Positions 10,329-64,000 of a stretch of 64,000 nucleotides of DNA are shown one piece after another (the stretch's first letter is position 1; the number at the start of each line of letters is the position of its first letter). Both the position numbers and the translations under genes were made by a program. The DNA is taken from assembly GCA_017464345.1 (NCBI GenBank), contig JAFUAH010000017.1, forward strand, positions 40,640 to 104,639. Direction: 5' to 3'. Under the pieces are notes generated by a model, which worked only from the letters and a program-made list of their open reading frames with translations, did no database searches and was not told the origin of the DNA. The DNA comes from Bacteroidaceae bacterium (GTDB lineage Bacteria; Bacteroidota; Bacteroidia; Bacteroidales; Bacteroidaceae).

Positions 10329-12065
10329 GTTGTTTATGCCACTGCAAAGATACTAATTTTTCAGCAAATCACAACTGTTGCAGCGTCGATGACCTCATAC
10401 ACACTGTTGTTTATGCCACTGCAAAGATACTAATTTTTCAGCAAATCACAACCTACACGCGCACGTGTGATTACCTATAAAGTTGTTTATGCCACTGCAA
10501 AGATACTAATTTTTCAGCAAATCACAACTGCATACGCTAATACCGTAGTACCTACTGGGTTGTTTATGCCACTGCAAAGATACTAATTTTTCAGCAAATC
10601 ACAACCGAAGCCGTTGAGCGTAAGTCAATTAGGAAGTTGTTTATGCCACTGCAAAGATACTAATTTTTCAGCAAATCACAACTTGCCAGCAACTGGCTGC
10701 TCACCTCGGCCAGTTGTTTATGCCACTGCAAAGATACTAATTTTTCAGCAAATCACAACTGCCTGCCTGCTGCCTACCTCTCCCCCCTGTTGTTTATGCC
10801 ACTGCAAAGATACTAATTTTTCAGCAAATCACAACTCGCGCTGAAAAATGGAAAAAACAGCAACGGTTGTTTATGCCACTGCAAAGATACTAATTTTTCA
10901 GCAAATCACAACTGAAGGTTATTAATTTCTTCGATGTAGTCCGTTGTTTATGCCACTGCAAAGATACTAATTTTTCAGCAAATCACAACGTGCGCGTGAA
11001 ACGGTGTACACCTTCTTTGGTTGTTTATGCCACTGCAAAGATACTAATTTTTCAGCAAATCACAACTGGACGAGAGAGGAGAAAATAAATGCATTTGTTG
11101 TTTATGCCACTGCAAAGATACTAATTTTTCAGCAAATCACAACCAGTTACGATGGCGTTCTTTCACAAAATTGGTTGTTTATGCCACTGCAAAGATACTA
11201 ATTTTTCAGCAAATCACAACGAATACCTCGGCGGTAAGGATTTCTATATTGTTGTTTATGCCACTGCAAAGATACTAATTTTTCAGCAAATCACAACTTT
11301 CACTTGCGACGCCAATGTATTCACTCGGTTGTTTATGCCACTGCAAAGATACTAATTTTTCAGCAAATCACAACACAAATGCGGCAGCGGGCGGCGTTGA
11401 AAAAGTTGTTTATGCCACTGCAAAGATACTAATTTTTCAGCAAATCACAACTGCCGGCAACTGGCGTAATGTTGTCGGACTGTTGTTTATGCCACTGCAA
11501 AGATACTAATTTTTCAGCAAATCACAACTGCATTGATGTAGGCCACCACATCCTTGTAGTTGTTTATGCCACTGCAAAGATACTAATTTTTCAGCAAATC
11601 ACAACACTACGGCACCGACCAAACACTCCTTCTGGTTGTTTATGCCACTGCAAAGATACTAATTTTTCAGCAAATCACAACATCCAGGGCTTTCGCCATG
11701 GCATCGAATGAGTTGTTTATGCCACTGCAAAGATACTAATTTTTCAGCAAATCACAACAACGACACAGACGCCGCCCAGCGGGCCGACGTTGTTTATGCC
11801 ACTGCAAAGATACTAATTTTTCAGCAAATCACAACACTCTCAACTGTGCGCCGTACTCCTTCAGGTTGTTTATGCCACTGCAAAGATACTAATTTTTCAG
11901 CAAATCACAACTAACGATGTGTACGGAACATACAACAACGAGTTGTTTATGCCACTGCAAAGATACTAATTTTTCAGCAAATCACAACGTTCGTTTATCG
12001 CTTTTGTTGGATGCGTCTGTTGTTTATGCCACTGCAAAGATACTAATTTTTCAGCAAATCACAAT
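10329..12065 (-). CRISPR. Type II-C CRISPR array, 23 repeats, 22 spacers
   Basis: The repeat is 47 bp (plus strand starts GTTGTTTATGCCACTGCAAA and ends CAGCAAATCACAAC). All copies look identical except that the rightmost one (12019-12065) ends in T instead of C. Spacers are 29-30 bp. The tracrRNA anti-repeat implies that crRNAs come from the minus strand, where the repeat reads GTTGTGATTTGCTG first. In that orientation each repeat holds TATCTTTG at positions 24-31 and GTTG at 1-4, a candidate internal promoter. Short ORFs across the array on the plus strand are translated repeats, not genes. I saw no spacer matching the rest of the window by eye. Confidence 0.98.
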
Positions 12066-12102
12066 TTGCTTGCGAATGAAGTGTAGATGAAAGACGAAAG
12101 GG

Positions 12103-34767: not shown

Positions 34768-34816
34768 GTTAAGGTTAAAAGGTTAAAAAGTTAAAAGGTT
34801 AAAAAGTTAAAAAGAT
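34768..34816. repeat. Tandem GGTTAAAA octamers
   Basis: Five to six copies of an 8-bp GGTTAAAA/AGTTAAAA unit lie just upstream of the GH89 start (minus strand). The same unit separates slyD from aroC at 46.76 kb. No conserved centre or second arm is seen here. Confidence 0.7.
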
Positions 34817-41880: not shown

Positions 41881-44739
41881 ATGAGCGAGAATAAGATAGA
41901 GGTTCTTGGCGCACGTGTCCATAACCTGAAGAATATTGACGTGGAGATACCACGCCAGAGCCTGACGGTCATCACTGGTCTATCGGGGTCGGGCAAGTCT
42001 TCGTTGGCCTTCGACACCATCTTTGCCGAAGGGCAGCGGCGATACATCGAGACATTCTCGGCCTACGCCCGCAACTTTCTGGGCAATATGGAGCGCCCCG
42101 ATGTCGATAAGATTACGGGCCTCTCGCCGGTGATAAGCATCGAACAGAAGACGACGAACAAGAATCCACGCTCCACCGTGGGCACGACGACGGAGGTCTA
42201 TGACTTCCTGCGCCTGCTCTATGCCAGGGCCGGCGAGGCATACTCCTACGTCACGGGCGAGCGGATGGTGAAATATACCGAAGAGCAAATCGTCGAACAG
42301 TTGCTCCACGACTATCTGGGTCGCAAGGTCTATCTGTTGGCACCGCTCGTAAAGAACCGTAAGGGACACTACAAGGAGCTCTTCGAGTCGGTCCAGAAGA
42401 AGGGATACCTCTACGTCCGCGTGGATGGCGAACTGATGGAGGTGGAACGCGGCATGAAACTGGACCGCTACAAGAACCACTCCATCGAAGTGGTCGTAGA
42501 CAGGCTCGTCGTAAAGGAAACGGACGACCGAAGGCTCCAGAACAGCGTACAGAACACACTGAAGCAGGGCGACGGCCTGATGATGGTCTTTGACGTGAAG
42601 GAGGGAACTATCCGCCACTACAGCCGCCGACTGATGTGCCCGACAAGCGGCATCTCCTACAGCGACCCGGCACCGCACGACTTCTCGTTCAACTCACCGC
42701 AAGGAGCCTGCCCGCGATGCAAGGGCCTCGGCTACGTGTCGCTCATCGACCGCGACCTCATCATCCCCGACCGCTCGCTCTCCATCCACGACGGTGCCAT
42801 CGTGCCCCTGGGCAAGTACAAGAGTTCGATGATATTCTGGCAAATCTCCGCCATACTGGACAAGTACGGCTTCACGCTCAACGACCCCGTCAGCAGTCTG
42901 CCCGACGAGGCGCTGGACGAGATATTCAGCGGTTCCATCGAACGCCTGCGCATCCCTGCGGAACTGACGAAGACCTCTAGCGACTACTACTGCACCTACG
43001 AGGGACTGGTGAAATACATCCGCTCCACACAGGAGAACGACCAAAGCGCCACGGCACAGAAGTGGGTAGGGCAGTTCAGTCGTGACTGCACTTGTCCCGA
43101 ATGCAAGGGACAGCGCCTGAACAAACAAGCCCTGCACTACCGCATCGCGGACAAGAACATCGCCGAACTGGCTGCCATGGACCTCGGTGACCTGTATCAG
43201 TGGTTGCAGGGCCTCGACCCACACCTCACGGCCTACCAGCAGAAAGTTGCACCCGAAATACTGAAGGAGATACGCACCCGGCTGAAGTTCCTCCTGGATG
43301 TCGGGCTTGACTACCTGTCGCTAAACCGGGCTTCGGCATCGCTCAGCGGCGGCGAGAGCCAGCGCATCCGACTGGCCACGCAGATAGGCAGTCAGCTGGT
43401 GAACGTACTCTACATATTGGACGAGCCGAGCATCGGCCTCCACCAGCGTGATAACCAACGGCTCATCCGCTCACTGAAGGAACTCCGTGACACGGGCAAC
43501 ACGGTCATCGTCGTCGAGCACGACCAGGAGATGATGGAGAATGCCGACTGGATTATCGACATAGGTCCCCGCGCCGGACGCAAGGGCGGCGAAGTGGTGT
43601 TCCAAGGGACGTACAAGGACATGCTGAAGGCCGATACGCTGACGGCGCAGTATTTAAGAGGCAATTCACAATGCACAATGCACAATGCACAATTAGCCTC
43701 CGGCAAGGCTGAGGAAAGCAATAAAGGCGTAGCCCCCATTGTGAATTGTGAATTGAATCATTGTGAATTGAAACTCTACGGCTGCACGGGCAACAACCTG
43801 AAAGGGGTGAACGTCACCTTTCCCCTCGGCACACTCATCTGCGTGACAGGAGTCAGCGGAAGCGGAAAGTCGAGCCTCATCAACGAGACGCTGCAACCCA
43901 TCCTTTCGCAGCACTTCTACCGCTCGCTGAAGGACCCACTCCCCTACGAGAGCATCGAGGGGGTGGAACTCATTGACAAGGTCGTCAATGTCGATCAAAG
44001 TCCGCTGGGGCGCACGCCACGCTCCAATCCCGCCACCTACACCGGTGTATTCAACGATATCCGTAACCTCTTCGTACAACTGCCCGAAGCCAAGATTCGC
44101 GGCTACAAGCCGGGACGTTTCTCCTTCAATGTGAAGGGCGGACGATGCGAGACGTGCGGCGGAAACGGTTACCGTACCGTGGAGATGAATTTCCTGCCCG
44201 ACGTGCTCGTACCTTGCGAAGAATGTCACGGAAAGCGCTACAACCGCGAGACCCTGGAGGTCAGGTTCAAGGGAAAGTCTATCGCCGACATCCTGGACAT
44301 GACCATCAACCAGGCCGTAGAGTTCTTCGAGAACCAGCCGCAGATACTACAGAAGATAAAGATGCTACAGGACGTGGGACTCGGCTACATCAAACTCGGA
44401 CAGCCCAGCACGACCCTCAGCGGCGGCGAAAGCCAGCGTGTCAAACTGGCCACAGAACTGGCCAAGCGCGACACTGGGCGCACGCTCTACATCCTCGACG
44501 AGCCCACTACGGGCCTCCACTTTGAGGACATCCGCGTCCTGCTTTCCGTCCTCAACCGTCTGGTCGAGAAGGGCAATACGGTCATCGTCATCGAGCACAA
44601 CCTCGACATCATCCGCGCCGCCGACTACTTGATAGACATGGGCCCGGAGGGTGGTCAGCGTGGCGGCCAGCTCCTTTTCCAAGGTACGCCCGAGGCACTA
44701 AAAAAGGCTGGTGTGGGTTACACCAGCCAGTATCTGTAA
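41881..44739 (+). CDS. uvrA: Excinuclease ABC subunit A, first copy
   Basis: UvrA (952 residues) is the damage-sensing ABC ATPase of nucleotide excision repair. Two ABC modules are complete: Walker [13 protein letters not shown] near 35 and [12 protein letters not shown] near 660, signatures LSGGESQRIRLATQ and LSGGESQRVKLATE, and Walker B YILDEPSIGLH and YILDEPTTGLH. Zinc-binding pairs CPRCKG, CPECKG, CETCGG and CEECHG are present. Residues about 594-631, in the linker between the two modules, are encoded by a modular repeat element and read as NAQLASGKAEESNKGVAP. The frame is intact, so the protein is likely functional. Confidence 0.96.
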   Translation: MSENKIEVLGARVHNLKNIDVEIPRQSLTVITGLSGSGKSSLAFDTIFAEGQRRYIETFSAYARNFLGNMERPDVDKITGLSPVISIEQKTTNKNPRSTVGTTTEVYDFLRLLYARAGEAYSYVTGERMVKYTEEQIVEQLLHDYLGRKVYLLAPLVKNRKGHYKELFESVQKKGYLYVRVDGELMEVERGMKLDRYKNHSIEVVVDRLVVKETDDRRLQNSVQNTLKQGDGLMMVFDVKEGTIRHYSRRLMCPTSGISYSDPAPHDFSFNSPQGACPRCKGLGYVSLIDRDLIIPDRSLSIHDGAIVPLGKYKSSMIFWQISAILDKYGFTLNDPVSSLPDEALDEIFSGSIERLRIPAELTKTSSDYYCTYEGLVKYIRSTQENDQSATAQKWVGQFSRDCTCPECKGQRLNKQALHYRIADKNIAELAAMDLGDLYQWLQGLDPHLTAYQQKVAPEILKEIRTRLKFLLDVGLDYLSLNRASASLSGGESQRIRLATQIGSQLVNVLYILDEPSIGLHQRDNQRLIRSLKELRDTGNTVIVVEHDQEMMENADWIIDIGPRAGRKGGEVVFQGTYKDMLKADTLTAQYLRGNSQCTMHNAQLASGKAEESNKGVAPIVNCELNHCELKLYGCTGNNLKGVNVTFPLGTLICVTGVSGSGKSSLINETLQPILSQHFYRSLKDPLPYESIEGVELIDKVVNVDQSPLGRTPRSNPATYTGVFNDIRNLFVQLPEAKIRGYKPGRFSFNVKGGRCETCGGNGYRTVEMNFLPDVLVPCEECHGKRYNRETLEVRFKGKSIADILDMTINQAVEFFENQPQILQKIKMLQDVGLGYIKLGQPSTTLSGGESQRVKLATELAKRDTGRTLYILDEPTTGLHFEDIRVLLSVLNRLVEKGNTVIVIEHNLDIIRAADYLIDMGPEGGQRGGQLLFQGTPEALKKAGVGYTSQYL
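43662..43773 (+). repeat. In-frame modular element in the uvrA linker
   Basis: The left arm has CACAATG heptamers (43662-43694), the centre is GCCTCCGGCAAGGC then GAGGAAAGCAATAAAGGCG (43696-43736), and the right arm has inverted CATTGTGAATTG units (43737-43770). It adds about 37 residues without a stop. The centre family is shared with the elements in the second uvrA and at 2.6 kb. Confidence 0.85.
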
Positions 44740-44803: not shown

Positions 44804-45970
44804 TTATCGGGTACTCTGAATCGTGGCCACGACATACTCCGACTGAGTGCCGATGCGGAAGCGACCGCCCCATATGCCGAGACCGCTGGAGACGTAGTAT
44901 TGCGTCCGTCCACGGCGATGGCTGCCCCACGAACATTCGTACATCAGGTCCGTAGCCCACGAGGCGGGCCATACCTGGCCACGGTGGGTATGACCGCTCA
45001 GCTGGAAGTCGATGCCGGCCTGTTCGGCCTCGCCCAGGTCGTGGGGCTGGTGATCGAGCAAGATGGTAAAGGCCCGCTCCAACTCCCCCATAAGGGGGAG
45101 AGACTTACCCCCCCATCCCTCCTGTTCCTCCGTAAGGAGAAGGGAGTTTGCTGCTGACATCAAGGTGGCCAAGGACTTGCGACGAGGGTTCGTGCGGTCG
45201 TCGCGCCCGATGATGACGAGAGCCGAATCTATCAGTATCGCCTCATCACTCAGCAGGTGGATGCCAGCGTCGCGGTAGAACTGCCGTGCTTGGGGACAGC
45301 CGCTGTAGTACTCATGATTGCCAAGACAGGCATAAACGGGAGCCTCCAGCCGACGAAACTCGGCGGCCATGTCTTCTTCTAAGAGGGGACGCACACTGCG
45401 GTCGATGATGTCACCCGCGATGAGTATCAGGTCGGGGCGTTCTGCGTTCATCATATCCACCCACCGCGCCAGTTCACGCCGGTCGTTGTGGTAGCCCAGA
45501 TGCAGGTCGCTGGCCATCACCACGCGATACGAGCGAGGCAGGGGCTTGGAGGACTCGATGGTGAGCGGCACGCGCACCTTGTGGCGATAATGAAGGTAGC
45601 CATAGAGGAACGTGCCGAACATCACAACCAGTATGCACAGCGCCGACCAGCCATTGTCGTGGAGCAGCGAGCGCGGGACAAGACGACACAGCCGGCCCAG
45701 GTCGAGCAGCAAGAAGAGCATGAAGAGATAGAGCAGCACGATGAGCGACGACGTACCTATATTATATAACGAGCTCGCGAGGGGCATGGGCAGAGCGTCG
45801 AGCCCGGGACTGACAGCATAGAACAGCAGCAGGAAACAAGTTACACACAACGCCACGACGACGGACTTCCCCATAGGGGCCAGCGGCAACAGCAGCCACA
45901 CGTGCCAACCGACGTAGGCCAGGCCGGACACTGGCAGGAGCATGAACAATAGCAAAGCAAATAGATTCAT
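44804..45970 (-). CDS. Membrane-anchored metallophosphoesterase
   Basis: A 388-residue protein with about four N-terminal transmembrane helices (to about residue 125) and a calcineurin-like phosphoesterase domain: SDLHLGYHND, GDIIDRS, GNHEYY, LLDHQPH and SGHTHRGQ supply the two-metal ligands. It resembles YaeI/YkuE-type enzymes. A stretch of about 25 residues (NSLLLTEEQEGWGGKS...) before FTILLDHQP is encoded by a palindrome-rich insert. The substrate is unknown. A TATCTTTG box (plus-strand 46016-46023) lies upstream. Confidence 0.86.
   Translation of the reverse strand: MNLFALLLFMLLPVSGLAYVGWHVWLLLPLAPMGKSVVVALCVTCFLLLFYAVSPGLDALPMPLASSLYNIGTSSLIVLLYLFMLFLLLDLGRLCRLVPRSLLHDNGWSALCILVVMFGTFLYGYLHYRHKVRVPLTIESSKPLPRSYRVVMASDLHLGYHNDRRELARWVDMMNAERPDLILIAGDIIDRSVRPLLEEDMAAEFRRLEAPVYACLGNHEYYSGCPQARQFYRDAGIHLLSDEAILIDSALVIIGRDDRTNPRRKSLATLMSAANSLLLTEEQEGWGGKSLPLMGELERAFTILLDHQPHDLGEAEQAGIDFQLSGHTHRGQVWPASWATDLMYECSWGSHRRGRTQYYVSSGLGIWGGRFRIGTQSEYVVATIQSTR
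45074..45150 (-). repeat. In-frame palindromic insert in the phosphoesterase
   Basis: Read in gene direction it holds CTCCTTACGGAGG and then CTCCCCCTTATGGGGGAG, two small hairpins separated by a G-rich stretch. It keeps the frame and adds about 25 residues at a loop before the third metal motif. Its sequence family differs from the GTTGAAA elements. Confidence 0.6.
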
Positions 45971-46157: not shown

Positions 46158-46757
46158 ATGTCTGAATTGAAACCAAATCTGTACGTGGCCGTAGCTTATC
46201 GGCTATACACTAAGAATCAGGAGGGCAAGCGTGAACTCGTAGAGGAGGCCACCAAGGAACAGCCCTTCCAGTTTGTAAGCGGCCTGGGCATGACGCTCGA
46301 CGACTTTGAGGCACACATCACGCCGCTCCCGAAGGATGCCGAGTTCGACTTCGAACTCACTCCCGAGCAGGCCTATGGCGAATACGAGCAGGAGCGCGTC
46401 ATCAAGGTGCCGCGTTCGACGTTCGAGATTGACGGTCGTCTGGACAAGCAGTATATCTACGAGGGTGCCGTCGTGCCCTTGCAGAATGCCGACGGCCAGC
46501 GCTTCAACGGTCTGATTGCCAAGATTGGCGACGAGGAGGTGACCGTAGATTTGAATCATCCCCTGGCCGGCAAGACACTTATCTTCGTAGGCGAGGTGAC
46601 CGACATCCGCGAGGCCACGCCCGACGAGATCACGCGCACGCTGAAGATTATCACTGGCGAGGGCGGATGTGGCTGCGGATGCGAGGACTGCGGCGGCTGT
46701 GACGACCATCACCACGAACACAGCGACCACTGCGGTTGCGGCCATTGCCACGGATAA
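46158..46757 (+). CDS. slyD: SlyD-like FKBP peptidyl-prolyl isomerase
   Basis: A 199-residue FKBP-type prolyl isomerase with the inserted chaperone flap. YRLYTKNQEGKRELVEE, FVSGLGMTLDDFEAHI and the YGEYEQERVIKVPRSTF flap are typical, followed by HPLAGKTLIFVGEVTDI. The tail is rich in Cys and His (GCGCGCEDCGGC and a His run), a metal-binding end as in E. coli SlyD, which delivers nickel. Whether this one handles nickel or zinc is not known. Confidence 0.92.
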   Translation: MSELKPNLYVAVAYRLYTKNQEGKRELVEEATKEQPFQFVSGLGMTLDDFEAHITPLPKDAEFDFELTPEQAYGEYEQERVIKVPRSTFEIDGRLDKQYIYEGAVVPLQNADGQRFNGLIAKIGDEEVTVDLNHPLAGKTLIFVGEVTDIREATPDEITRTLKIITGEGGCGCGCEDCGGCDDHHHEHSDHCGCGHCHG

Positions 46758-46796
46758 GGTTAAAAGGTTAAAAGGTTGAAAAGTTGAAAAGTTAAA
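46757..46796. repeat. Tandem octamers between slyD and aroC
   Basis: AAGGTTAAAA and GGTTGAAAAGTTGAAAAG units fill the whole gap and run into the GTG start codon of aroC (GTTAAAGTG). Confidence 0.7.
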
Positions 46797-47909: not shown

Positions 47910-48758
47910 ATGAAACGCTCTGCCCTACTCTTTTTAGTTTTTAGTTTTCAACTTTCAACTTTCAACTTCGTGAGTGCTCAATACATCAACAAGGCCGTAG
48001 AAATATGGCCCAAGGAAGTGCCCGGCGGCGGCGAAAAGCGGCCCGTGGAATGGAAGGAGCGCCCTGCCGACGGCAACAGTTTCCTTAACGTCTCCTCTCC
48101 CACGCTGGAGGCCTTCGTCCCGGAAGCCTCGAAGAGCAACGGCAAGGCCATAGTCGTCTGCCCCGGTGGAGCCTACGCCATGCTGGCCTACGAAAAGGAG
48201 GGGCAGGAAGTGGCACAATGGCTGTCTGCCCTAGGCTACAATGCCTACGTGCTGGCCTACCGTGTGCCCAATAACCGGCAGGGAGCCTTGCAGGACGTGC
48301 AGCGGGCCATCCGTCTGGTGCGCAGCAAGGGAGCCACGCAGGTGGGCGTCATAGGCTTCTCGGCCGGAGCCAGCCTTTCGTGCCGTGCATGCACGCGCTG
48401 GAACGAGCCCGCCTACGAGCCCAATCCCAAGGACAAGACCGACACGCTCTCGTGCCGCCCTGACTTCGGCATCCTCATCTATCCCGCCTACCTCGACGAG
48501 GGACCCGACCACACCCTCACACCTGAACTTACGGTCACCCGGGACACCCCTCCACTCTTCGTCTTCGGCACCGAGGACGACGTGAAGTACAGCGGCCCCT
48601 CCACTCCCGTCATCATGCAGGCCATGCAGCAGGCCGGTGCGCCCGTCGAGGTGCACTACCTGACCAAGGGCGGCCACGGCTACGGTATGCGACGCGGTGC
48701 CGGCCTCATCTGGCCCGCCCTGGCCGAGCAGTGGTTAAAGACACTTCGTAAACCATAA
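47910..48758 (+). CDS. Secreted alpha/beta-hydrolase esterase
   Basis: A 282-residue exported esterase/lipase-like enzyme. The oxyanion segment VVCPGGAYAMLAYEKEG and nucleophile GFSAGASLS are clear, with Asp in FGTEDDVKYSG and His in TKGGHGYGMR completing the triad. This fold includes acetyl-xylan and carbohydrate esterases, and the substrate is not readable. The signal peptide hydrophobic core (LLFLVFSFQLSTFNF) is encoded partly by GTTGAAA-type heptamers (47943-47968). Confidence 0.82.
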   Translation: MKRSALLFLVFSFQLSTFNFVSAQYINKAVEIWPKEVPGGGEKRPVEWKERPADGNSFLNVSSPTLEAFVPEASKSNGKAIVVCPGGAYAMLAYEKEGQEVAQWLSALGYNAYVLAYRVPNNRQGALQDVQRAIRLVRSKGATQVGVIGFSAGASLSCRACTRWNEPAYEPNPKDKTDTLSCRPDFGILIYPAYLDEGPDHTLTPELTVTRDTPPLFVFGTEDDVKYSGPSTPVIMQAMQQAGAPVEVHYLTKGGHGYGMRRGAGLIWPALAEQWLKTLRKP

Positions 48759-54431: not shown

Positions 54432-55796
54432 ATGAAACTTGACATCACACAGGCACTCATCAGTGCCGAGAAAGTTAATGCACTAAAAAGCAAGGTTGAA
54501 GAAGCACAAGTAGCGCTGGAGCAGGGCACCTGCCCGGGCAACGATTTCCTGGGTTGGCTGCACTTGCCTTCGAGCATCACGCCTGAATTCATCGCAGAGA
54601 TTCAGCAGACGGCCGACGTGCTCCGCAAGGAGTGCGACACCGTGGTGGTGGCCGGCATCGGCGGCTCCTATCTGGGTGCCCGCGCCATCATTGAGGCACT
54701 GGCCAATAGTTTCCAGTGGCTGGTCAGCGCACAGGCTGAAATTCAAAATTCAAAATTCAAAAAAGAGAATCCCGACGTGCTCTTCGCCGGTAACAACATC
54801 GGCGAGGACTACCTCTACGAGCTGACAGAGTACCTCCGTGGCCGCAAGTTCGGCGTCATCAACATCTCCAAGTCGGGCACCACGACCGAGACGGCCCTGG
54901 CCTTCCGCCTGCTGAAGAAGCAGTGCGAGGAGCAGCGTGGTAAGGACGTGGCCCGGAAGGTCATCGTGGCCATCACCGATGCCAAGCGTGGTGCTGCCCG
55001 CACGTGTGCCGACAAGGAGGGCTATAAGTCGTTCATCATCCCCGACAACGTGGGTGGCCGTTTCTCGGTGCTCACGCCCGTGGGCCTGCTGCCCATCGCC
55101 ATTGCCGGCTTCGACATCGCAGCCCTCGTCAAGGGTGCGCAGGACATGGAGCGCCAGACCGCCGTCGGCGTACCCTTCGAGGAGAACCCCGCTGCCCAGT
55201 ACGCTGCCGTGCGCAACGCCCTGTATCAGGAGGGTAAGAAGATAGAAATCGTGGCCAACTACCAACCGAAGTTGCACTACATCGGCGAATGGTGGAAGCA
55301 ACTCTACGGCGAGAGCGAGGGCAAGGACCACAAGGGCATCTTCACCGCTGCCGTTGACCTGACCACCGACCTGCACTCGATGGGCCAGTGGATTCAGGAC
55401 GGCGAGCGCAGCATCTTCGAGACGGTCATCTCCGTGGCCCGTCCCGAGCACACCTTGCTCTTCCCCAGCGACGAGGAGAACCTGGACGGCCTGAACTTCC
55501 TGGCCGGCAAGCGCGTGGACGAGGTGAACAAGATGGCCGAGCTGGGCACCAAGTTGGCTCACGTGGACGGCGGCGTGCCCAACCTGCGCATCGAACTGGA
55601 GCGTCTGGACGAGTACAACCTTGGTCAGTTGATTTACTTCTTCGAGAAGGCTTGCGGCATCTCGGGTCTCGTGCTCGGTGTGAATCCCTTCAACCAGCCC
55701 GGCGTGGAGGCATACAAGAAGAATATGTTTGCCCTGCTCGGCAAGCCCGGATACGAAGCCGAAACGGTAGCTATTAAGCAGAGGCTTAATCACTAA
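54432..55796 (+). CDS. pgi: Glucose-6-phosphate isomerase
   Basis: Pgi (454 residues) interconverts glucose-6-phosphate and fructose-6-phosphate in glycolysis. Conserved segments: [16 protein letters not shown] near 77-92, [37 protein letters not shown], and the late active-site [11 protein letters not shown] and [18 protein letters not shown] short stretch before [10 protein letters not shown] ([15 protein letters not shown]) is encoded by three ATTCAAA heptamers at 54741-54760, replacing the usual linker. It has a strong duplicated promoter. Confidence 0.96.
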
Positions 55797-62000: not shown

Positions 62001-62662
62001 TGATATGATGGGATATAAATTAAACTTGTACAAAAGTACGAAATAATTCTCAATAAATGATTATCTTTGTAGCGTAAAAAACGAAATGTACATGGAAGAG
62101 AGCATCAAGATAAAGGGCGCACGGGTGAACAACCTGAAGAACGTCGATTTGGAGATTCCGCGCAACAAGCTCGTCGTCGTGACGGGCGTCAGCGGAAGCG
62201 GCAAGTCTAGCCTGGCCTTCGACACACTGTATGCCGAGGGACAGCGGCGCTACGTGGAGAGCCTGTCGGCCTACGCCCGCCAGTTCCTGGGCAGGATGCA
62301 GAAGCCCGAGTGCGACTACATCAAGGGCATACCGCCCTCGATAGCCATCGAGCAGAAGGTTTCGAGCCGGAACCCACGCTCGACAGTGGGCACATCGACG
62401 GAAATCTACGACTACATGCGGCTGCTCTTTGCCCGTGTGGGCCGCACGTTCTCGCCCGTGAGCGGCGTGGAGGTACGGAAGCACACCACCGAGGACGTCG
62501 TGCAGACGATGCTCTCCTACGGCCGTGGCACCAAGTTTGCCGTACTCTGCCCCCTGCGCGTGCCCGAAGGCCGGACACTCCGCGAACAGCTGGAGATGGA
62601 ACTGAAGGCCGGATTCGCCCGCGTGGAGATAGATAGCGAGATAGTGAGGATTGAAGACCTGC

Positions 62663-62788
62663 TGAAAGTTGAAAGTTCAAAGTTGAAAGTTGAAAGTTAT
62701 GCCTCCGGCGAGGCAGAGGAAAGCAATGGCGTAGCGAACGCGGAATAAAAACTTTCAACTTTCAACTCTCAACTTTCAACTTTAAACT
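62663..62788 (+). repeat. Modular element in the second uvrA, with stop codon
   Basis: The left arm has GTTGAAA heptamers (62663-62698), the centre is GCCTCCGGCGAGGC then GAGGAAAGCAATGGCGTAGC (62701-62735), and the right arm has inverted TTTCAAC units (62752-62786). Read in the gene frame it gives [17 protein letters not shown] and then TAA. Confidence 0.88.
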
Positions 62789-63897
62789 TAGTCATCGACC
62801 GCATGTCGGTGAGCGACGAGAAGGACACCATCAGCCGACTGGTCGACTCCAGCGAGACGGCCTTCTACGAAGGCGGAGGCGAGATGATGCTGCGCTTCTA
62901 TCCAGCCGGCATCATGCACCAGTTCAGCATGAGGTTCGAGGCCGACGGCATCACCTTCGAGGAACCCTCAGACAAGTTGTTTGCCTTCAACTCCCCCGCC
63001 GGGGCGTGCCCCGAGTGCGAGGGCTTCGGCCGCATCATCGGCATAGACGAGCATCTGGTCATCCCCAACTCGGCCCTGTCGGTCTATGAGGGAGCCGTCA
63101 TGTGCTGGCGCGGCGAGAAGATGAGCGAATGGAAGAACTGGTTCATCCGCCTGAATGCCGAACGCGGATTCCCCATACACAAGCCCTACTTCCAGCTCAC
63201 ACAGGCCGAGAAGGACTGGCTCTGGCACGGCACCATCCCTAACTACGTGCCCGACGGACAGCGCGAACTGAAGCCCGAGGAGCGGGAATGGGGAATGATG
63301 TCCATCGATGCCTTCTTCGACAACCTCCGGGCCGGGCAGTACAAGATACAGAACCGCGTCATGCTGGCTCGCTATCGCGGAAAGACGCTCTGCCCCAAGT
63401 GCCATGGTACGCGCCTCAGGCCCGAGGCCAACTACGTGAAGGTGGGCGGGCGCAGTATCACGGACTTGGTGGATATGCCCATAACAGAGCTGAAGCGGTG
63501 GTTCGAGCAATTGACGCTGACCGAACAGGAAGAGAAGATAGCCAAGCGCATCATGCAGGAAATCAACAGCCGGTTGCAATTTCTCTTGGACGTAGGGCTG
63601 GGCTATCTGACACTAAACCGCCTCAGTAACTCGCTCTCCGGAGGCGAGAGCCAGCGCATCAACCTGGCTACGTCGCTCGGCAGCAGTCTGGTGGGTTCGC
63701 TGTACATCTTGGACGAACCGAGCATCGGACTGCACAGTCGCGACACGGCCCGGCTCATCCGCGTACTGAAGCAGTTGCGCGACCTGGGCAACACAGTCGT
63801 CGTCGTGGAGCACGACGAGGACATCATGCGTGCCGCCGACTGGATTATCGACATCGGCCCCGATGCCGGACGGTTGGGGGGACAGGTGGTATGGCAG

Positions 63898-64000
63898 GGA
63901 GAAGTTGAAAATTTAAAGTTGAAAGTTGACAGTTGTGCCTCCGGCGAAGCACAAGCTCCCCATAGAAACACAGCCAAAGAATTTTCAACTTTCAACTTTC
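63898..64000 (+). repeat. Second in-frame element in the second uvrA, partial
   Basis: The left arm GAAGTTGAAAATTTAAAGTTG, centre GCCTCCGGCGAAGC, and the start of a TTTCAAC right arm reach the window end. It reads SCASGEAQAPHRNTAKEF in the gene frame and lies at the same inter-module linker as the element in the first uvrA. Confidence 0.8.

Follow-up and report, generated by a model that had tools for sequence, protein, structure and literature searches.

An in-frame palindromic element as the inter-module linker of UvrA in an uncultured Bacteroidaceae bacterium, and a candidate family of translatable repeats

The linker joining the two ABC modules of UvrA in an uncultured Bacteroidaceae bacterium is probably one member of a dispersed set of palindromic repeats, about 95-130 bp long, that have entered protein genes in frame, are translated, and are tolerated in loops. 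The gene, uvrA (excinuclease ABC subunit A; 41881..44739, plus strand), lies in a 64,000-nucleotide stretch of DNA, hereafter the window, which corresponds to contig bases 40640-104639 of a 1.9-Mb genome that is 61% complete (G000). As stated in a preliminary description of this DNA, the gene is otherwise intact around the element: its open reading frame (ORF) encodes 952 amino acids, its product scores 1336 bits against the NCBIfam UvrA model (cut-off 1147), and it aligns over nearly its full length with a solved UvrA chain that is gapped opposite the insert. The closest named relatives of this UvrA come from Bacteroidales and Prevotellaceae metagenome assemblies, the best sharing 88% identity (RUG14659).

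A palindrome in place of the ordinary UvrA linker

The palindrome proposed in the preliminary description is real, although it measures 109 nt (43662..43770, plus strand) instead of the 112 bp (43662..43773) first given, and it is read in frame as the inter-module linker (NSQCTMHNAQLASGKAEESNKGVAPIVNCELNHCEL). Its left arm (43662..43693) is a tandem array of CACAATG heptads (period 7, 4.6 copies, 96%), its centre (43694..43737, GCCTCCGGC...GGCGTAGCC) reads A-S-G-K-A-E-E-S-N-K-G-V-A and is of the same kind and frame as those found in other genes, and its right arm (43738..43770), made of AATTGTG-type heptads according to tandem-repeat and fold data, pairs with the left one. The outer 12 bp, CAATTCACAATG and CATTGTGAATTG, pair as terminal inverted repeats. 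Folded as single-stranded DNA, the palindrome reaches -25.0 kcal/mol (z -6.9 against mononucleotide shuffles). Two of its six frames are open throughout, namely the one used, which is the sole one on the plus strand, and one on the opposite strand. In an AlphaFold model that is only fair (29 sequences, mean pLDDT 69, pTM 0.50), the insert is predicted to be disordered, with pLDDT below 50 for residues 596-626 and no secondary structure from residue 594 to 628, a stretch that comes after the first ABC module ends and before the second begins its first strand.

Comparison with relatives shows that the element is a lineage-specific replacement of the ordinary linker. Measured between the anchors TLTxxYL and GNNL, which could be parsed in 106 of 110 genes (all but L058, L092, L153 and L167), the linker is exactly 69 nt long in 90 genes and 123 nt in the uvrA of the window, that is, 41 residues between anchors against the usual 23. 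The net gain is 18 residues, and the usual segment is absent, which makes this a replacement rather than a plain addition; the earlier estimate of about 37 added residues was thus right about the position, at the junction of the two ABC modules, but not about the gain. Conservation of the linker residues in distant UvrA proteins, which the same description had named as the result that would contradict it, was looked for and not found in the other 105 parsed linkers: 90 of them, at 69 nt, are not long enough to contain the segment, and its residues appear in no linker among the 15 exceeding 72 nt.

Long linkers are enriched in foldable sequence. Five of the 16 that exceed 72 nt have a fold z below -3, against two of the 90 ordinary linkers (p 7e-4). 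Besides that of the window (z -5.6), they are L122, with TAGAGTG heptads, from another Prevotellaceae assembly (z -8.1), L159 (z -5.3), L031, a CCCTCC palindrome in a close relative with a 90% identical UvrA (z -4.5), and L155, a GTGGAAA-type array with little pairing (z -3.8). The remaining 11 do not fall below -3, among them L161, with heptads on one side only (z -1.5), and L114 and L123 (z -0.8 and 0.1). Close relatives show CCCTCC palindromes in a second UvrA loop, near residue 453, but the fold test did not bear them out as palindromes (62 of 110 genes parsed; a single z below -3, from an ordinary 54-nt loop). At this loop, two named assemblies, L092 and L095, have an insert of another type in common.

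The window contains a second uvrA gene (62086..64000, plus strand) that runs off the contig end, with a partial NCBIfam UvrA match, below cut-off, at 62803-63999. As the preliminary description had noticed, the centre recurs elsewhere in the window with different arms: GCCTCCGGC-type centres at 62701 and 63937, both in the second uvrA and in the same reading frame, are flanked by TTGAAAG instead of CACAATG heptads. The first of these copies (62663..62792, plus strand, fold z -9.9) contains an in-frame TAA at 62746-62748; the gene halves on either side of it share one frame, and three compared relatives are uninterrupted there. The other copy (63900..64000, plus strand, fold z -3.9), truncated where the contig ends, comes after the first ABC module and so occupies the same ABC-ABC junction as the element of the first UvrA. 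At both sites the three relatives have other segments, one of them of CCCTCC type (L195, by eye).

One centre and one reading frame in unrelated genes

Alone, the nonamer GCCTCCGGC is a weak marker (three occurrences in the window for 0.77 expected, three being reached by 7 of 100 shuffles), and a longer centre pattern with up to three mismatches, matched in only 2 of 101 genomes, was replaced by a DNA pattern combining the centre with three heptads, which is our counting unit for the family. This pattern occurs at 16 places in 7 of 139 genomes of the genus (G000, G017, G037, G085, G106, G127 and G135); the reversed pattern, used as a control, occurs at one. The search for centre plus heptad arms that had been suggested as a check therefore yields 16 places, 12 of them within genes. 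These 12 represent 10 distinct genes, since the second UvrA and a beta-galactosidase-like gene of G017 have two places each, the latter pair lying 1.7 kb apart on one strand of what inspection indicates to be a single gene. With coding status judged by codon statistics and open frames, coding-like flanks were scored on both sides at 10 places, the two in the second UvrA lacking a scorable downstream side (stop, contig end). By comparison, only 5 of 89 inverted repeats of any kind are in coding sequence in a 464-kb sample of G000, made of contigs that had already given matches, window included. The difference is marked whether 12 of 16 places (Fisher p 5e-9) or only the 10 with both flanks (p 6e-7) are counted, the 12/16 and 5/89 coding scores coming from different scripts. 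The best NCBIfam names for the hosts are AlaS, PdxB, IleS, ThrC, RNase R, GcvPB, ABC transporter, FolC, PurL, beta-galactosidase and chorismate synthase, some of which do not reach the curated cut-off, in part owing to truncated loci.

At the protein level, a peptide of the same kind, ASGEAE..N.GAAQLST, recurs in unrelated genes and species. A profile built from nine element peptides gives 36 matches, several of them weak, in 15 of the 139 genomes (E <=0.001). Of 399 genomes sampled across the family, three match it (E <=0.0001), all in this genus, one of the 30 genera covered, in a run that scored at most 18 candidates per genome and could miss weak copies.

All nine coding copies with a forward centre are in frame 0, where GCC TCC GGC encodes A-S-G; three reversed coding copies, two in the beta-galactosidase-like gene and one in PurL, use other frames. 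A TTGAAAG arm would yield a TGA every three units, whichever the frame. At the base that would complete this TGA, coding copies have C (8) or T (9) and never G (0 of 17), whereas G stands at that position in 40 of 48 other coding heptads and in 48 of 50 heptads belonging to presumed non-coding arrays (p 5e-14). Among copies found by the DNA pattern alone, G is likewise absent (0 of 9, p 4e-9). The only AlaS found in G000, 61% complete as it is, is the element-bearing one. We infer that the element segments are translated straight through, because the frame runs through conserved genes, in-frame TGA is avoided, and the AlaS copy is common to three species. A half element at L176:19277-19311 (G000 contig 5, near 39277), with a left arm only, lies in a 625-codon open frame and has TCA at the would-be stop.

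The centre has been seen with TTGAAAG, TTCAAAG, CACAATG, TTCATAA and TTCACAA arms, and a kindred centre (GCCTACGGCGAGGCATAAGGGCGTAGCC) occurs in G000 elements with CACAGAG arms; therefore centre and arms look exchangeable, as if recombined or rewritten, in line with the modularity initially proposed. CACAGAG-armed palindromes with a GCCTNCGGCGAGGC centre are repeated in G000 (L061, L062, L064, L066 and L075).

The genome of the window is rich in repeats. The 464-kb sample of G000 contains 34 period-7 arrays, against none in one Markov shuffle, and its 89 inverted repeats compare with two in one order-3 Markov shuffle; the heptamer sequence varies by locus. Counted sample by sample with a looser flank rule, inverted repeats in coding sequence number 6 of 71 in 400 kb of G000 outside the window, 0 of 8 in G096 and G001 together (140 kb), 2 of 7 in G016 (80 kb, one weak), 1 of 21 in other Prevotella-like UvrA loci (184 kb), 3 of 7 in the UvrA loci of close relatives (41 kb) and 0 of 10 in Bacteroides-type isolates (149 kb). 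Other in-frame palindromes of G000, with different arms, lie in CcsB-like (L184:13062-13156), SpoIID/LytB-like (L186:8766-8844), MnmG (L189:10431-10543) and DusB (L190:19345-19425) genes. A carbamoyltransferase gene (L012, ORF 973-2058; G000 contig 8, near 48674), best matched in NCBIfam by N-acetylornithine carbamoyltransferase, has an in-frame TTCACAA-heptad palindrome with another centre. Within the window, a TTTTTAG/TTTCAAC heptad array at 47931-47968 encodes, judged by eye, the core of an apparent signal peptide (MKRSALLFLVFSFQLSTFNFVSA; ORF 47910-48758), and AAATTCA heptads are in frame near residue 120 of a glucose-6-phosphate isomerase ORF (54739-54762). On the minus strand, a metallophosphoesterase-like ORF (44804-45970, named by eye) contains in-frame CTCCCCCATAAGGGGGAG and CTCCGTAAGGAG hairpins (SLLLTEEQEGWGGKSLPLMGELERAF; 45067-45175), with an overall fold that is not unusual (z -0.4). 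A 77-bp direct repeat with an invariant TATGCCACTGCAAAGATA core is present about 22 times at 10329-12069, and tandem arrays of period 8 and period 9 are frequent in G000 as well (window 34771-34814 and 46756-46796; L186:1519-1599; L182:14491-14559).

Refilled loops and the origin of the elements

One AlaS element is shared, at an identical site, by the three species G000, G037 and G091, in loops of 111-114 nt with fold z from -7.1 to -8.9. Between G000 and G037, 4 of its 38 codons differ (3 silently, 1 not), against 71 of 252 in the flanks (58 silently, 13 not; p 0.03 for silent changes), a lower divergence that could be explained by gene conversion or by constraint on the DNA. This loop, between DW and FLGWD, is 27 nt long in five species; elsewhere it is filled by the ASG element, by GATGAAG heptads (G096), by a C/G-rich palindrome (G106) or, in G057, by the perfect hairpin CTCGGCGA-TTCCG-TCGCCGAG. 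The IleS loop preceding AWTTTPW is similarly diverse, with the ASG element in G037, TTGAAAG heptads in G017, CCCTCC-like palindromes in G135 and G106, CACAGAG/CTCTGTG in G001 and G085, and AGACTAGAT repeats in G000. We scored tandem and inverted repeats in these loops in 20 genomes, AlaS being left without G085 (unparsed), G016 (no match) and G017 (partial), and IleS without G127 (weak match). The score is in the top 2% of same-gene, same-length windows for 8 of 17 AlaS and 9 of 19 IleS loops; 9 and 10, respectively, miss that level, those of IleS in G135, G085 and G027 only narrowly, so that repeat-like filling is not general. In G135 and G025, ASG elements are found at one and the same position of an ABC transporter; their arms differ, and each centre resembles those of its own arm type. 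A gene that looks by eye like a glycoside hydrolase carries elements at a shared position in G000 and G017. Loops have thus been refilled repeatedly by unrelated repeats, and for AlaS as for IleS roughly half of the species have a repeat-like loop.

We favour the view that the UvrA linker belongs to a family that spreads by copying. The repeat, a GC-rich centre flanked by two arms of tandem 7-bp units, would enter protein genes in frame, be translated straight through as a short disordered segment, and persist thanks to its location in tolerant loops and domain junctions. Copies would spread as DNA from gene to gene, their arms being reshaped by heptad slippage and hairpin-primed copying, and the insert would be near-neutral for the protein; once in genes, the elements would be under pressure to stay open. 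Several observations weigh against this view. Stops occur inside 10 of the 36 profile matches, the copy at 62663-62792 of the second UvrA holds its in-frame TAA, and the chorismate synthase ORF of G017 ends at the TAA that closes its copy, with 269 of 344 profile positions matched. Eight of the 17 copies in the stop test are known only through a protein profile built from open copies. No named isolate is among the carriers, which include metagenome assemblies. No mover was found, Y1_Tnp being the only transposase family searched, and no clean insertion with a target duplication was seen; with the native loop replaced at UvrA, AlaS and IleS, no empty site is readable for such a duplication.

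The candidates considered for mobility did not hold. A Y1 transposase shows no link to the carriers: Y1_Tnp (PF01797) is present in 2 of the 7, against 62 of 139 genomes overall, with two matches over cut-off in G037 and one carrier more in G085, and none in G000 (61% complete), G017, G106, G127 or G135. As for a viral origin, the pattern occurs at three places in viral contigs, none of which shows an element by eye.

The strongest competitor, which we consider unlikely but well worth keeping in mind, is that the repeats are not mobile and were made in place, by slippage giving rise to 7-9 bp tandem arrays that hairpin-primed template switching then converts into palindromes, the loops being only apparent hot spots because coding constraints forbid such arrays elsewhere. 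It would account for the unrelated repeats at the same loop in different species (the 8 of 17 AlaS and 9 of 19 IleS loops in the top 2%), for heptamers that differ by locus, and for native loops replaced with no target duplication seen. Local slippage and hairpin-primed copying may indeed be the source of much of the variety of arms and loops. Alone, though, they cannot place one centre, in one frame, in unrelated genes: the shared centre and its peptide ASGEAE..N.GAAQLST require copying of sequence.

Other explanations seem far less probable than local origin. Selection of the linker for UvrA function (spacing, regulation or partner binding) would fit the presence of an element at the ABC-ABC junction in both uvrA genes and the lower divergence of the AlaS element relative to its flanks, but it is improbable given that the linker is absent or otherwise filled in close relatives, is disordered in the model, and has similar counterparts in unrelated enzymes. 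Palindromes assemble badly and the contig of the window, 104639 nt long, ends inside an element, yet an artefact of short-read assembly is slightly more improbable still, with the AlaS element at the same site in three separate genomes, the residue-453 insert of another type common to L092 and L095, and frames kept. Least credible of all is that the segment escapes translation, being spliced from the RNA or skipped by the ribosome as in hairpin bypass elements. Strong hairpins within essential genes and the in-frame stop in two copies would suit it; however, the remaining in-gene copies that were read keep an uninterrupted frame across the element, the in-frame TGA is absent from all copies tested (0 of 17) although a bypassed or spliced insert need neither keep frame nor avoid stops, and an Rfam search of window positions 43500-43900 gave no match.

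Our broader proposal is more tentative than the reading of the UvrA linker itself: this uncultured Bacteroidota clade may possess a coding-adapted palindrome family, largely stop-free in one frame and chiefly located in protein genes, with unrelated palindromes swapping in the same loops of essential enzymes. The preliminary description had the right idea but understated its extent: several species have elements in numerous conserved genes, the same loops are occupied elsewhere by other repeats, and coding copies avoid an in-frame TGA. If the proposal is true, short non-genic repeats continually supply new protein segments. The lineage also lends itself to the questions of whether selfish DNA can turn harmless by being translatable and how the loops of essential proteins get rewritten. 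There is also a practical side, since the inserts split profile matches and depress annotation scores, as for PdxB (373 bits, cut-off 434) and DusB (288 bits, cut-off 293).

Comparison with known systems

Like miniature inverted-repeat transposable elements (MITEs) and repetitive extragenic palindromic (REP) elements, the repeats are small, palindromic and dispersed and encode no transposase, and they have the terminal inverted repeats of MITEs; they appear to differ in that no target duplication was seen at UvrA, AlaS and IleS, where the native loop is replaced, and no partner transposase in a search for Y1_Tnp. The Y1 transposase expected in carriers of a REP/RAYT system is found in only two of seven. 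Palindromic repeats with coding potential are reportedly present in Wolbachia and Methanocaldococcus jannaschii, to go by the titles of papers; the likeness concerns this coding potential, at the level of titles and not of compared sequences. For simple sequence repeats, seven nucleotides is described as the most frequent unit length in the majority of the genomes that Mrazek and co-workers surveyed (PMC4679880), but here the arrays form inverted pairs around a centre and are also located in coding loops. In the same phylum, PINSR, as described in the accessible text, is a 188-bp repeat of Prevotella intermedia and nigrescens, amplified and intergenic, without terminal inverted repeats and not protein-coding (PMC4755523); amplification and short length are what it has in common with the UvrA-type element, from which its intergenic, non-coding nature sets it apart. 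Inverted repeats translated within protein genes, and gained or lost between species, are described in excerpts on the mitochondria of Nematomorpha, for which template switching was proposed; those palindromes, however, are perfect, reach 284 bp, and have arms that encode conserved residues (PMC6649704).

The closest counterparts are the Rickettsia palindromic elements (RPE), which, from the portions of the papers available, are palindromes of 105-146 bp with open reading frames, present in frame in many conserved genes and also in intergenic regions; for gmk, the one case tested, an active protein is produced (PMC2229807, PMC10969869). The UvrA element (109 nt) and the AlaS loops (111-114 nt) are within the size range of about 105-150 bp, and here too a peptide is read in frame in unrelated genes, with 9 of 9 forward coding copies in frame 0. 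The differences are the phylum, arms made of heptad tandem repeats whose sequence varies by copy, and the filling of the same loops by unrelated repeats in sister species. Searched against NCBIfam and Pfam (E <=10), five element peptides matched no RPE model or other family, apart from one chance-level match (SelB_WH2, E 0.11). The resemblance to Rickettsia originally put forward stands for the manner of working, palindromes in frame in conserved genes, rather than as a claim of membership. It had also been said that no such report was known for Bacteroidota, and we agree: in the parts of the open-licence literature accessible to us, including PMC5771137, PMC4755523, PMC10969869 and PMC2229807, we found no protein-embedded palindromes in this phylum, and the available text of the two RPE papers (PMC10969869, PMC2229807) contains no word beginning with "bacteroid".

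On the best reading, the elements would work like RPE, which we know by description, the likeness lying in how both appear to operate. Protein-embedded palindromes have been described mostly in Rickettsia, along with a small number of other microbes. The present lineage, whose named relatives are metagenome assemblies from gut and rumen, has elements in AlaS, IleS, UvrA and further conserved genes and would provide a second system in which to study them.

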